A stretch of 10,136 bases of DNA. It comes from Hyphomicrobiales bacterium. GTDB lineage: Bacteria; Pseudomonadota; Alphaproteobacteria; Rhizobiales; Aestuariivirgaceae. A program made the translations under genes and the position numbers. The notes under the pieces are model-generated. The model ran no database searches. It was not told the DNA's origin and saw nothing but the letters and a program-made list of their open reading frames with translations. The stretch spans positions 1 to 10,136 of the forward strand of contig JANYGE010000428.1 in the NCBI GenBank assembly GCA_025362535.1, read 5' to 3'. Of this stretch, positions 800-4,289 are shown piece after piece. Each line of letters opens with the position of its first letter. Within the stretch, counting starts at the first letter, position 1.

Positions 800-1739
800 G
801 TTGAGCCAAGCCAGTATTGCAGCAGCAGCCAAGCGCATCGCCCCTCATATCCGGCGCACCCCTGTTATCGATGTAAATTTGCCATCGCATGACAAGCCGA
901 TAAATCTAAAGCTTGAGCTCTTTCAGTTTACCGGAAGCTTTAAAGTGCGTGGTGCATTTAACAGCCTGGTAGGGCAGCAAATCCCAGCTGCTGGTGTTGC
1001 CGCAGTGTCCGGAGGCAATCATGGTGCCGCCGTGGCCCTTGCAGCCCGCAGCTTTGGCCATAAGGCCCGTATTTTTGTGCCTGGCTATGCGCCAGCGGCA
1101 AAGGTTGCTTTGATTAAATCATTCGGTGCAGAAATCATCCAAGAGGGCGATGATGTGGCCCATGTGATTGGCCTGTGGAATGCCTATGTCGCTGAAACTG
1201 GTGCGCTCAGCATCCATCCCTATGATGCACCCGCAACCTTGCAGGGCCAAGCCACCACCGCTTTGGAATGGCACGAACAGGTGCCTGATCTTGATACAGT
1301 GTTGGTGGCTGTGGGCGGCGGCGGTCTGATTGGTGGTATTGCCGCCTATTTTGATAGGCGCGTCAAAGTGATCGCCGTCGAGACCGAAAACACCGCAGCA
1401 CTGAACTTGGCGTGGAGCAAAGGCGAACCTGTCAATATTAAGCCCTCTGGCGTGGCCGCTGATTCACTCGGCGCAAACCGCATCGGCAACATGGCTTTTG
1501 CAATGATCAATACAGTGATCACTGGCACTATTCTGGTCAGCGATGACGATGTTCGGGCCGCCCAGCGCCACCTATGGAACGAAGCTCGCATTGTAACAGA
1601 ACCTGGAGGAGCCACAGCATTCGCTGCTTTATTGTCGGGCGCTTATAAGCCTGCCAAGGGCGAACGTGTTGGCATATTGGTTTGTGGCGGCAACACTGAT
1701 TTAGATGCCTTCGCCAAAACCATCAAGCAAACGCCGTGA
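792..1739 (+). CDS. PLP-dependent threonine/serine dehydratase (short form, no ACT domain)
   Basis: Fold-type II PLP enzyme, predicted to deaminate L-threonine to 2-oxobutyrate and ammonia and/or serine to pyruvate in the cytoplasm. In the 315-residue product, Lys51 in GSFKVRGA is the expected Schiff-base lysine, SGGNHG at 73-78 is the substrate carboxylate loop, the GGGG run at 175-178 binds the PLP phosphate, and CGGN at 298-301 is the segment near the PLP ring nitrogen, with Cys where many relatives have Ser. No C-terminal ACT regulatory domain is present, so it resembles catabolic TdcB or serine-racemase-like enzymes rather than biosynthetic IlvA of about 500 residues. ATG at 792 was preferred over an in-frame upstream ATG at 735 because AAGGA at 779-783 lies 8 nt before it and the longer N-terminus is not family-like. 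The gene overlaps pdxY upstream by 8 nt and htpG downstream by 17 nt on the opposite strand. The exact substrate (Thr, Ser, hydroxyaspartate, or racemase activity) cannot be settled from sequence. Confidence 0.88.
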   Translation: MTELSQASIAAAAKRIAPHIRRTPVIDVNLPSHDKPINLKLELFQFTGSFKVRGAFNSLVGQQIPAAGVAAVSGGNHGAAVALAARSFGHKARIFVPGYAPAAKVALIKSFGAEIIQEGDDVAHVIGLWNAYVAETGALSIHPYDAPATLQGQATTALEWHEQVPDLDTVLVAVGGGGLIGGIAAYFDRRVKVIAVETENTAALNLAWSKGEPVNIKPSGVAADSLGANRIGNMAFAMINTVITGTILVSDDDVRAAQRHLWNEARIVTEPGGATAFAALLSGAYKPAKGERVGILVCGGNTDLDAFAKTIKQTP

Positions 1740-3561
1740 GCATCACAGCGCCTAAGCGCTTGGCAAACTCTGCCGGTTCCGCCACGATTTCACCTTCCAA
1801 CATGAAAGCCTGATCCAAAAGCAAATGAGCCGCATCATCAACCGATGTGGCACCCTTATCGGCAATCAGTTTCGCCAAGGCCTTCATCAAGCCATGGCCG
1901 GCATTGATTTCCAAAACTGGCGCACTTAACGCAACACCAGAATCTTTTTGCCGCGACAAAAGCTTTTCCAAAGTCCGGTCCATCTGGCCATCATTGACCA
2001 GACACACAGCACTGTCTGTCAACCGTTTTGAAACCCGAACATCAGAAACCCGATCACCCAATGCCTGTTTGAAGGCTAGCAACAGAGCCGCAATTTCAGG
2101 TGCCGCAGATTTATCTTCTGGTGCTGCCTCCTTGGTCTTGATCAAATCCAAATCGGCAGAACCCTGCGATACTGATTTGAAGGGCTTACCATCAAATCCC
2201 AAAGCCGTGCGCACCCAGAAACTGTCTACAGGGTCGGTCAGCAGAAGCACTTCAACATCACGCGCCTTGTAACCTTCAAGCTGCGGAGAAGAAGCGGCCT
2301 TGGCCGCATCTTCAGCCGTTAAATAATAAATCGCCGTCTGGTTTTCCTGCAGCCGCGAAATATAATCCTTGAGAGTTGTCGCTTCAGATTTTGTGGTTCT
2401 GAATGTCGCAATATCAAATAGGGCGTCACGGCGCTCATAATCTTCATAAAGCCCTTCCTTAAGCACCGGCCCAAATACATCCCAGATTTTTTTAAAGGCA
2501 ACGGCATCATTCTCCGCGCATTTTTTAAATTCAGCTAACACCCGGTTGGTGACAGCCTTGCGGATCACAGCAACATCAGGATTATTCTGCAGCATCTCGC
2601 GCGACAAATTAAGTGGCATATCCGCACTGTCAATCACCCCGCGCACAAAGCGCAAGTAAGGTGGCAGCAAGCCTACATCATCCGCGATAAACACACGTTT
2701 CACATAGAGCTTCTGCCGGCCTTTGCGTTCAGGGTCATAGAGATCAAAGGGCCTTTCGCCTGGCACATAAAGCAACACATTATATTCCTGCCTGCCTTCA
2801 GCGCGGTAATGGATCGTGAGCGCTGGTTCATCCGTGCCATGATTGAGCAGACCGAAAAATTCTTTGTGTTGTTCGGCAGTAATCTCAGACTTGGGCCGCA
2901 TCCAAATCGCACTCGCCGAATTGATTTGACGGACTTCGCCTTCTCCGGCCAGCATAATGGGATGCGCGATATGATCTGAATAGGCCCGCACCACCTCTTC
3001 AAGTTTCCACGCCTCAAGATAATCAGACGCATCATCGCGCAAATGCAGAACTATTCGGGTGCCGCGTTCCTTGGTTTCAGCTTCTTCAACCGTAAACGTG
3101 CCTTCGCCTTTGGAGCGCCACACATTGCAAGCTTTGGCACCCGCTTTACGCGAAAACACTTCGACTTCCGAAGCCACCATGAAGGCGGCATAGAACCCCA
3201 CACCAAACTGCCCAATCAGGCTTGGTCCATCTTTGGCTTTTTCAACAAAGCTTTGCGTGCCAGATTTGGCAATGGTACCGAGATTGTCGGTGAGTTCTTT
3301 CGAAGACATGCCAATGCCACTGTCTTCGATTGTCAAAGTCTTGGCCGCCTTGTCGGGCCGCAAGGTGATGCTGAGTTTTGCCTCTTGCTCCAAAAGTTCC
3401 GGTTTGGCGATGGCATGGTAGCGCAACTTATCCAGCGCATCTGAGGCGTTGGAAATAAGTTCACGCAAAAACACATCGCGGTCAGAATAAACCGAATGCA
3501 CCATCATGTGCAAAAGTTTGCCGACTTCGGCTTGAAATTCTTGTGGTTTTGCTTTGGTCAT
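1723..3561 (-). CDS. htpG: Molecular chaperone HtpG (bacterial Hsp90)
   Basis: ATP-dependent homodimeric cytosolic chaperone that remodels client proteins with the DnaK system. The 612-residue product has the full Hsp90 layout. The N-terminal GHKL ATPase domain carries ELISNASDA (Glu34 is the expected catalytic Glu), DSGIGM at 80-85, GTIAKSGT at 95-102 and the lid motif GQFGVGFYAAFMV at 117-129. The middle domain follows (around 220-490, including RGVIDSADMPLNLSREMLQ), then the C-terminal dimerisation domain. The length is normal and no residue appears to be missing. ATG at 3561 was chosen over an in-frame TTG at 3582 because two AGGG motifs (3565-3568 and 3571-3574) precede it and MTKAKPQEFQAEV is a normal HtpG start. 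A heat-shock-type promoter lies just upstream, and a terminator separates it from anything further upstream. The last codons overlap the convergent dehydratase gene by 17 nt; no intrinsic terminator for htpG is visible. Confidence 0.98.
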   Translation of the reverse strand: MTKAKPQEFQAEVGKLLHMMVHSVYSDRDVFLRELISNASDALDKLRYHAIAKPELLEQEAKLSITLRPDKAAKTLTIEDSGIGMSSKELTDNLGTIAKSGTQSFVEKAKDGPSLIGQFGVGFYAAFMVASEVEVFSRKAGAKACNVWRSKGEGTFTVEEAETKERGTRIVLHLRDDASDYLEAWKLEEVVRAYSDHIAHPIMLAGEGEVRQINSASAIWMRPKSEITAEQHKEFFGLLNHGTDEPALTIHYRAEGRQEYNVLLYVPGERPFDLYDPERKGRQKLYVKRVFIADDVGLLPPYLRFVRGVIDSADMPLNLSREMLQNNPDVAVIRKAVTNRVLAEFKKCAENDAVAFKKIWDVFGPVLKEGLYEDYERRDALFDIATFRTTKSEATTLKDYISRLQENQTAIYYLTAEDAAKAASSPQLEGYKARDVEVLLLTDPVDSFWVRTALGFDGKPFKSVSQGSADLDLIKTKEAAPEDKSAAPEIAALLLAFKQALGDRVSDVRVSKRLTDSAVCLVNDGQMDRTLEKLLSRQKDSGVALSAPVLEINAGHGLMKALAKLIADKGATSVDDAAHLLLDQAFMLEGEIVAEPAEFAKRLGAVMLTAFA

Positions 3562-3585: not shown

Positions 3586-3614
3586 ATATTGAGAAACATC
3601 CGCTCTACGTCAAG
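3586..3614 (-). promoter_or_regulatory. Heat-shock (RpoH-type) promoter of htpG
   Basis: On the minus strand the -35 element CTTGAC (3614-3609) is followed, after 15 nt, by CTCAATAT (3593-3586). The E. coli sigma-32 consensus is CTTGAA, a spacer of about 13-15 nt, then CCCCATNT. The -10 matches five of the seven defined positions. The predicted transcription start is near 3579, giving a leader of about 18 nt before ATG 3561. Reading the same site as a housekeeping promoter would need a poor -10 (AATATC after 17 nt). htpG is a known RpoH-regulon member in many bacteria, which supports the call. Confidence 0.6.
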
Positions 3615-3617
3615 GAT

Positions 3618-3648
3618 AAAAAAAGGGCGGTCGCAACCGCGAACCGCC
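3618..3648 (-). terminator. Rho-independent terminator of the putative small RNA, upstream of htpG
   Basis: On the minus strand GGCGGT pairs with ACCGCC (3648-3643 with 3631-3626). After one bulged base, CGC pairs with GCG around a four-base loop, and seven T residues follow at 3624-3618 after one C. The T-run is on the minus-strand side only, so it terminates leftward transcription entering from above 3648. No minus-strand protein gene lies there (DUF2794 is on the plus strand and the BI-1 gene has its own terminator), which implies an RNA gene. The htpG -35 starts only four bases beyond the T-run. Confidence 0.8.
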
Positions 3649-3680
3649 TTAAATTACTCAACTGACTAAACTCGAGTCTT

Positions 3681-3730
3681 GGGGACTTGGGGGGCCCGGC
3701 TGGTCTTTAATGCTTCGGGGGGCTGGGGGG
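3681..3730 (+). other. Potential G-quadruplex motif
   Basis: The plus strand has four G-runs of at least four: GGGG at 3681-3684 and GGGGGG at 3689-3694, 3717-3722 and 3725-3730. The long middle loop is itself partly self-complementary with flanking sequence. It lies opposite the C-rich loops of the putative minus-strand sRNA, so it may simply be the complement of selected C-runs. Folding as a DNA quadruplex is an inference from run length only. Confidence 0.35.
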
Positions 3731-3785
3731 CTAAACCGAAGCGAAGGCCAACCGGGCGATCGAGGCAACAAACAAACTATCATCC

Positions 3786-3810
3786 TGCATCTTGTCCAAG
3801 ACTTGATGCA
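3786..3810. repeat. 25-bp dyad symmetry between the sRNA and DUF2794
   Basis: TGCATC (3786-3791) and GATGCA (3805-3810) are perfect inverted arms around 13 bp, and the centre contains a further small palindrome, CTTGTCCAAG (3791-3800). It lies upstream of the putative minus-strand sRNA and about 70 bp upstream of the plus-strand DUF2794 start, a suitable place for an operator serving either direction. No T-run follows on either strand, so it is not a terminator. I do not recognise the regulator; chance occurrence is possible. Confidence 0.3.
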
Positions 3811-3878
3811 ATTGCGGCAAAACCAAGGAATTTTACGCCCTTGCAAATCAGAGCCTGCAGAGTCATTGTTACACCTTG

Positions 3879-4241: not shown

Positions 4242-4268
4242 AAAAGGCCCCGATTTTCACCGAGGCCT
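4240..4268 (-). terminator. Intrinsic terminator of the BI-1 gene
   Basis: On the minus strand AGGCCTCG (4268-4261) pairs with CGGGGCCT (4252-4245), 8 bp with one U-G, around an 8-base loop, and is followed by a T-run at 4245-4240. It begins 21 nt after the BI-1 stop. The same hairpin read on the plus strand follows the DUF2794 stop directly but has only a broken T stretch (CATTT), so it may terminate DUF2794 transcription weakly as well. The T-run overlaps the DUF2794 stop codon. Confidence 0.8.
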
Positions 4269-4289
4269 CATTTCAAATATGCGCTCTTA

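Follow-up and report, generated by a model that had tools for sequence, protein, structure and literature searches.

A small RNA gene divergent from DUF2794 across much of the Hyphomicrobiales, a counterpart of BjrC174 and probable RNA arm of the ChvG-ChvI response

A structured small RNA gene in a noncoding gap

What does the long noncoding gap between htpG and a DUF2794 gene encode? We analyzed a 10,136-nucleotide stretch of DNA from a Hyphomicrobiales bacterium (the window), in which htpG (HSP90; 1723..3561) lies on the minus strand and the DUF2794 gene (Pfam PF10984; 3876..4241) on the plus strand. An earlier note, made from the sequence alone, had placed in this gap an unannotated, leftward, structured small RNA (sRNA) gene with its own terminator. 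This proposal was borne out and gains support from compensatory changes in relatives. The gap upstream of htpG carries a real sRNA gene, which would be transcribed leftward in the window organism.

The gene occupies 3618..3769 of the minus strand (about 152 nt), with a 5′ end inferred from conservation of GUUGCC and a 3′ end at a T tract. Along the RNA follow the 5′ end, helix P1, helix P2 with its loop, a linker, a terminator hairpin, and seven T, all on the minus strand. The near-invariant 5′ end, GUUGCCUC (3762..3769), includes CCUC, an anti-Shine-Dalgarno-like word. P1 (3694..3757) comprises 10 bp, 3757-3748 with 3703-3694, plus three inner pairs, while P2 (3712..3742) is a perfect 7-bp helix (3742-3736 with 3718-3712) that displays the C-rich loop AGCCCCCCAGCCCC (3719..3732), our proposed seed. 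The terminator hairpin (3626..3648) has nine Watson-Crick pairs (6 + 3, with one bulged base), and its T7 tract is read directly in the sequence at 3618..3624. Thus, the nine-pair terminator with seven T and the nested 7-bp and 10-plus-3-bp helices described earlier were all found, on the strand proposed. A covariance model built from 20 same-genus sequences (R1, from alignment A1) matched the window copy (G000:C172:3618-3769) with an E value of 4.6e-30, this sequence being itself part of the model. A terminator-like hairpin was present downstream in 66 of 78 sequences.

The weakest part of the earlier proposal was an outer 5-bp helix closing the 5′ end against the 3′ linker. In the window copy, it was no better than in shuffles (p 0.37), and no more than 14 of 78 sequences scored p ≤ 0.05 for it, so it is not a general feature. 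The note had also judged a chance origin unlikely, and for the remaining structure, conservation and covariation show that it is nonrandom. We considered and rejected a small protein, as neither of two overlapping open reading frames tested had a Pfam match and alignment gaps were often not in threes.

Covariation across relatives, a check that the note had named, was examined in a sequence-only alignment (A3) of 79 diverse cores, taken from 80 representatives after exclusion of L159 for a long insert. Of 182 loci read, 145 were kept, which required GTTGCC and the loop, enough length, and no duplication of a kept sequence. This filter dropped the Bradyrhizobium-type loci L051-L060, as well as L029 and L043, so the lack of variation at the 5′ end and loop in A3 is to some extent built in by the selection. 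An enclosing helix was present in all 145 kept sequences. In A3, P1 was paired in 95.0% of cells, with double changes at 8 of 10 pairs, and P2 in 79.0%, with double changes at all seven. Together, the two helices had 154 double-changed cells, compared to 32.9 ± 9.4 in shuffled alignments and 24 to 63 with slid partners.

Folding both strands confirmed a structured minus strand (−56.9 kcal/mol versus −39.9 ± 3.7 in shuffles; z −4.6) but left the strand undecided, since the plus strand folds even better (−72 kcal/mol; z −6.5) and energy alone cannot choose between them. The functional strand could then be plus, with a structured element in the upstream or transcribed region of DUF2794, the commonest neighbor of the locus. 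We rejected this reading, which we hold to be extremely improbable. The T tract and the promoter array and −10 element described below all point left, and the sRNA 5′ end lies 105 to 816 bp before the DUF2794 match, on the opposite strand. In addition, nine P1 pairs contained 60 G-U or U-G cells against 8 A-C or C-A cells when read on the minus strand; these counts would swap on the plus strand, which argues that the minus-strand RNA is under selection. We chose the minus strand because of the promoter, the terminator, and this asymmetry.

Neighbors and distribution of the locus

The earlier note had described the gene as lying upstream of htpG, which is true in the window. We surveyed the neighbors of 158 distinct elements, for which the BLAST queries were partly taken from the same loci. 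Where at least 900 nt of upstream sequence was available, a divergent DUF2794 gene was found within 900 nt in 134 of 146 loci, with the pattern set represented by the matches listed (same genus, 19/19; R1, 19/19; RF02355, 11/12; listed pattern matches, 85/96). By comparison, 54 of 132 loci had htpG downstream in the same orientation (same genus, 16/16; R1, 17/21; RF02355, 0/12; listed pattern matches, 21/83). The usual defining neighbor is therefore the divergent DUF2794 gene and not htpG, which is the downstream neighbor in part of the order only.

These counts bear on whether the element is a cis-acting leader or attenuator, in which the structure and terminator set read-through into htpG. 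The element does lie on the same strand, directly upstream of htpG, in 16/16 same-genus loci with enough DNA. However, a separate htpG promoter, TTGACG-N16-CAATAT, is seen downstream of the sRNA terminator in the window (3586..3613, minus strand), and 18 of 20 aligned same-genus loci have a promoter-like CTTGAC block between the terminator and htpG (L006 is without it, and L010 has CTTGAA). Where htpG is missing, as in the RF02355 set, the RNA and mostly DUF2794 remain. We rejected an htpG leader or riboswitch, since the element does not keep a constant place in the htpG 5′ region, and we consider this explanation very improbable.

Starting from DUF2794 alone, we searched 31 genomes and obtained 28 loci. 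A covariance model of the core alone (R2) matched upstream in 17 of them (E < 0.005), the window among them, and gave weak matches at the same place in two more. The other nine loci had no sRNA element nearby by R2; among these, R1 matched 2.4 kb (G048) and 6.3 kb (G040) from DUF2794 and far away in G046 and G055. On the other side of the DUF2794 gene in the window, at 4244-4269, where this gene and Bax1-I converge, we observed a terminator-like hairpin of 11 pairs with T residues after it on the minus strand.

Plain blastn with the region found 28 of 61 relatives: 26 of the 37 that share the genus and 2 of the 24 that belong to other families of the order. Within the order, R1 recovered the sRNA from 75 of 122 genera (151 of 297 genomes), mostly as one copy per genome. 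Across the class, R2 recovered the core from 13 of 337 genomes, one of them the window's own. Both counts were made with stricter filters, at which weak matches are lost. A pattern holding GTTGCCTC and the loop picked at least 120 further stretches from public genomes (L063-L182). Among the pattern matches listed were Bosea, Microvirga, Methyloceanibacter, Hoeflea, Rhodoplanes, Chelatococcus, Stappia, and Parvibaculum, together with many unclassified Hyphomicrobiales/Rhizobiales.

Both conserved segments were intact in all 20 blastn-found loci read, with L005 having one C fewer just past the loop. The 5′ end differs from GUUGCCUC in Bradyrhizobium-type loci and several outgroup copies. The loop is one C shorter in Bradyrhizobium-type loci, and variants such as AGCCCCCAAGCCC occur in copies outside the order. 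Several copies had features of their own. One genome outside the order (G363) has tandem sRNA copies adjoining DUF2794 (L269:1044-1120 and 1237-1312, minus strand), both of them with a phased array, plus a further copy at another place (L193). Inside the order, G047 has a tandem pair (L255:867-948 and 1160-1232, minus strand) with diverged loops, AGCCCCCCAGCCCC and AGCCCCCAAGCCCC. A GGTTCAATC(CCC) block, which we take to resemble a tRNA T-arm, recurs 3′ of P1 in the linker before the terminator (L132, L152, L162, L163, L172, and L176). The L157 copy sits on a contig binned as a Pirellulaceae metagenome-assembled genome, probably a misbinned alphaproteobacterial contig.

Relation to BjrC174 and other known small RNAs

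The earlier note had recognized no Rfam family and thought that the RNA might be new. For the window itself this stood: Rfam gave no match at E ≤ 5, and the window copy (L001) had no match to RF02355 at E ≤ 10. The claim of novelty did not extend to its relatives. RF02355 (BjrC174), titled in Rfam as a Bradyrhizobiaceae sRNA and having a gathering cutoff of 45 bits, matched 10 of 13 relatives at E ≤ 1, two of them over the cutoff. A second scan of 20 loci (L030 was in both) gave 14 matches at E ≤ 10, one over the cutoff; the window copy and five same-genus copies had none at that threshold. Scores in relatives within the order reached 54.5 (L040), 50.4 (L033), and 45.5 bits (L036). Across the order, RF02355 matched in 97 of 297 genomes, 21 over the cutoff, again with the stricter filters that lose weak matches. 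Separately, we observed that RF02355 (below the cutoff) and PF10984 both match in the Caulobacter vibrioides controls.

R1 and RF02355 name the same place in the 10 genomes compared by eye (G053, G067, G112, G143, G167, G201, G223, G244, G285, and G312). The nine highest-scoring RF02355 loci (L051-L059) have CAGCCCCCAGCCCCCC in the same stem and adjoin DUF2794. The RNAs thus share a homologous core of stem and C-rich double loop at the same locus, the loop less one C. Like the window element, BjrC174 is divergent from DUF2794 (11 of 12 RF02355-found loci) and has the same stem, a CAGCCC(C)CCAGCCCCCC loop, and a terminator. Unlike the Rfam model, which has about 80 more 5′ positions, the window copy starts with GUUGCCUC directly before P1; it also has htpG downstream and stays below RF02355 even at E 10. 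Because the models name the same places, with the same neighbor and the same stem with a near-identical loop, locus and core make the window element, on sequence grounds, an ortholog of BjrC174, even though its Rfam score does not qualify it as a member.

In Bradyrhizobium japonicum, BjrC174 is reported to be abundant; of the validated starts for which no promoter had been mapped, its start site showed the strongest promoter activity, in the parts of that report at hand (PMC4842269). In the literature searched, BjrC174 turned up in a single paper, and we found no function for it, nor the loop sequences of the sRNA in the literature text searched.

Three other sRNAs were weighed as the same RNA and rejected on loop or locus, all three being set apart by their published descriptions. 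ChvR of Caulobacter crescentus is transcribed under ChvI-ChvG, as we propose here. Unlike our RNA, it is 84 nt long, lies at the recF locus, and pairs via two stem-loops, and excerpts of the same report state that its authors found no conservation beyond C. crescentus (PMC6237742). PmaR of Agrobacterium likewise has an accessible C-rich loop, borne on a spoon-like hairpin, that it needs to regulate its targets; unlike our RNA, it is given in the portions consulted as confined to Agrobacterium species and one Rhizobium strain, with several targets activated (PMC6234868). Like our RNA, EcpR1 (SmelC291) is a trans-sRNA conserved widely in the Rhizobiales, most strongly so in its loop, but that loop is UCCGCCGCAUCU and its locus in Sinorhizobium meliloti is divK-pleD/rpmG, according to partial text of the source (PMC4414408).

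The family is therefore not entirely new. The earlier reading was right in kind, and BjrC174 of RF02355 is the known counterpart. What is new is the extent across the order and beyond, the DUF2794 anchor, the ChvI-type promoter, and the failure of the RF02355 cutoff on most copies.

A phased promoter array and its probable regulator

While aligning 77 upstream regions at GUUGCC, ungapped and with no selection on the promoter array, we found a phased pattern upstream of the sRNA. C occurs at −58 in 91%, followed by GCC at −49/−47 (87/88/96%), −38/−36 (71/66/96%), and −27/−25 (79/69/95%), with T favored at −53 and −42. Of 76 sequences, 70 (the window among them) had a C at each of the four positions, which lie 11 bp apart. 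In the window, this putative activator array spans −64 to −20 (3789..3833, minus strand; period, 11 bp), with the C residues of −58, −47, −36, and −25 at 3827, 3816, 3805, and 3794. One unit is a full GCC, and two units keep the final C only (ATC and GAC). Closer to the start, A-11, T-10, A-9, T-8, and T-7 are each present at 48 to 78% in the 77 regions, and from these preferences GATAGT (3776..3781, minus strand) is the probable −10 element of the window.

A matrix trained on the A3 upstream regions was then tested within ±300 nt at 27 outside places, drawn from outgroup families and DUF2794-anchored loci and not picked by upstream sequence. In 19 of 27, the highest score fell on the array, at most 3 nt out of the expected register, a count for which the training set holds a few Parvibaculum-type sequences and test copies L184-L187 may have near relatives there. 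In two, nothing but a tandem copy's array scored higher; five were best at a shift of 6 to 25 nt; and L238 was weak. A strict GCC-array pattern proved unusable as a finder of other targets. In 37 same-genus genomes, it gave 313 matches against 150 in the reversed control, which we regard as background, and it does not match the window's own array.

The letters and period of the array, GCC-N8-GCC, are the same as in the reported S. meliloti ChvI consensus, N-GCC-N8-GCC, in the part of that report at hand (PMC9731502). Some of the regions behind an earlier S. meliloti consensus had no shown binding (PMC3687685), and partial text on Caulobacter gives the ChvI motif in other letters, TTGC-N3-GCAA. 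Two papers on the ChvI regulon (PMC3687685 and PMC9731437) named no sRNA in a word search of their text. The products of chvI/bvrR are reported to target their own promoters (PMC9731502, in part; PMC9491525).

The genome of the window encodes, on L199, a response regulator beside a kinase segment with Sensor_TM1 and Stimulus_sens_1. This segment scored 355 bits against the ChvG model, under the cutoff of 740; we take the regulator to be ChvI from this ChvG-like neighbor plus known sequence features. All 31 genomes tested had a close match to it. The matrix alone placed 10 of 24 chvI upstream regions at ≤5/60 shuffles. We then fixed a 14-mer, GCC..AWTY...YC, from the array column frequencies, after the matrix result on chvI upstream regions had been seen. 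Using 29 of 30 chvI loci (L342, at a contig end, was excluded), it matched 12 times in 11 upstream regions; nine of these matches fell between −63 and −86, and the opposite strand gave one. Expected counts were 0.14 from the rest of the chvI loci, 0.53 from unrelated loci, and 0.23 from shuffles. The strict 14-mer was absent from the other 18 of the 29 loci. The window copy itself has the four phased C and one 14-mer match, yet two degenerate units.

The same sRNA could have its array read by another OmpR-family regulator, or the array could reflect some other conserved promoter contact. Tandem 10- to 11-bp repeats are general for OmpR-family regulators, CenR with TGA-N8-TGA being an example (PMC9275681), and the window genome has nine OmpR-type DNA-binding domains. 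Set against this, the letters of the array, GCC-N8-GCC, agree with the published ChvI consensus and differ from the CenR half-site, and 11 of 29 chvI loci carry the motif upstream of the gene in a similar position. We consider a regulator or contact other than ChvI unlikely, though credible. The sRNA is probably the RNA arm of the ChvG-ChvI envelope-stress response, judging from these sequence comparisons.

We therefore favor, as the likely account, a ChvG-ChvI-activated trans-acting sRNA, orthologous to BjrC174, whose C-rich loop would pair with G-rich mRNA sites. The gene, usually single copy, would be read leftward from its own promoter. With a weak −10 and no clear −35, this promoter would depend on an OmpR-family activator, most likely ChvI; phosphorylated ChvI would bind the four 11-bp-phased half-sites of the GCC-N8-GCC type and recruit RNA polymerase. 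An RNA of about 150 nt would be made under envelope or acid stress and end at the intrinsic terminator, its long covarying stem presenting the near-invariant loop. The loop, perhaps with the 5′ GUUGCCUC, would pair with G-rich mRNA regions such as ribosome-binding sites. Targets would probably be envelope or outer membrane genes, with expression lowered. Such repression of envelope proteins would parallel that by ChvR, the ChvI-activated sRNA of Caulobacter, as far as excerpts of its report describe it (PMC6237742).

We scanned the window's own genome (G000) for the loop complement, GGGGCTGGG, and found 46 matches, one being the sRNA itself, versus 2 for the reversed sequence. The 30 sites read lay mostly inside long open frames, so they are no evidence for targets, and the scan yielded no target list. 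That no target was named fits a different role for the C-rich loop, in which it would bind a protein, as decoy or scaffold, with no mRNA pairing. A loop near-invariant across great distances would also be expected of a protein site. Within the order, the C-rich loop of PmaR, several of whose targets are activated, is nonetheless reported to pair with mRNAs, in the portions of that report at hand (PMC6234868). We regard a purely protein-binding role as distinctly unlikely and retain mRNA pairing by the loop as our working model.

The phased array and the C-rich double loop also co-occur in families outside the order, e.g., at L269. We see about an even chance that the locus is an ancestral alphaproteobacterial one, older than the order, and a core output of ChvG-ChvI; on this reading, DUF2794 may be cocontrolled by the array in the common intergenic region. 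The promoter of CCNA_R0088 is a highlighted ChvI ChIP-seq match in partial text on Caulobacter, and CCNA_R0088 might be the counterpart of the sRNA there.

At its cutoff, RF02355 misses most of this family, finding it in 21 genomes of the order compared to 151 of 297 with R1. ChvR, the published ChvI-activated sRNA, was reported as species specific in excerpts of its description (PMC6237742). If our reading is true, a ChvI-type sRNA across much of an order that spans plant symbionts and free-living bacteria, mostly of soil and water, would equip this regulator of envelope stress with a general RNA arm. The abundant Rfam sRNA BjrC174 would likewise gain a pathway, and its targets and the role of DUF2794 would become directly testable.
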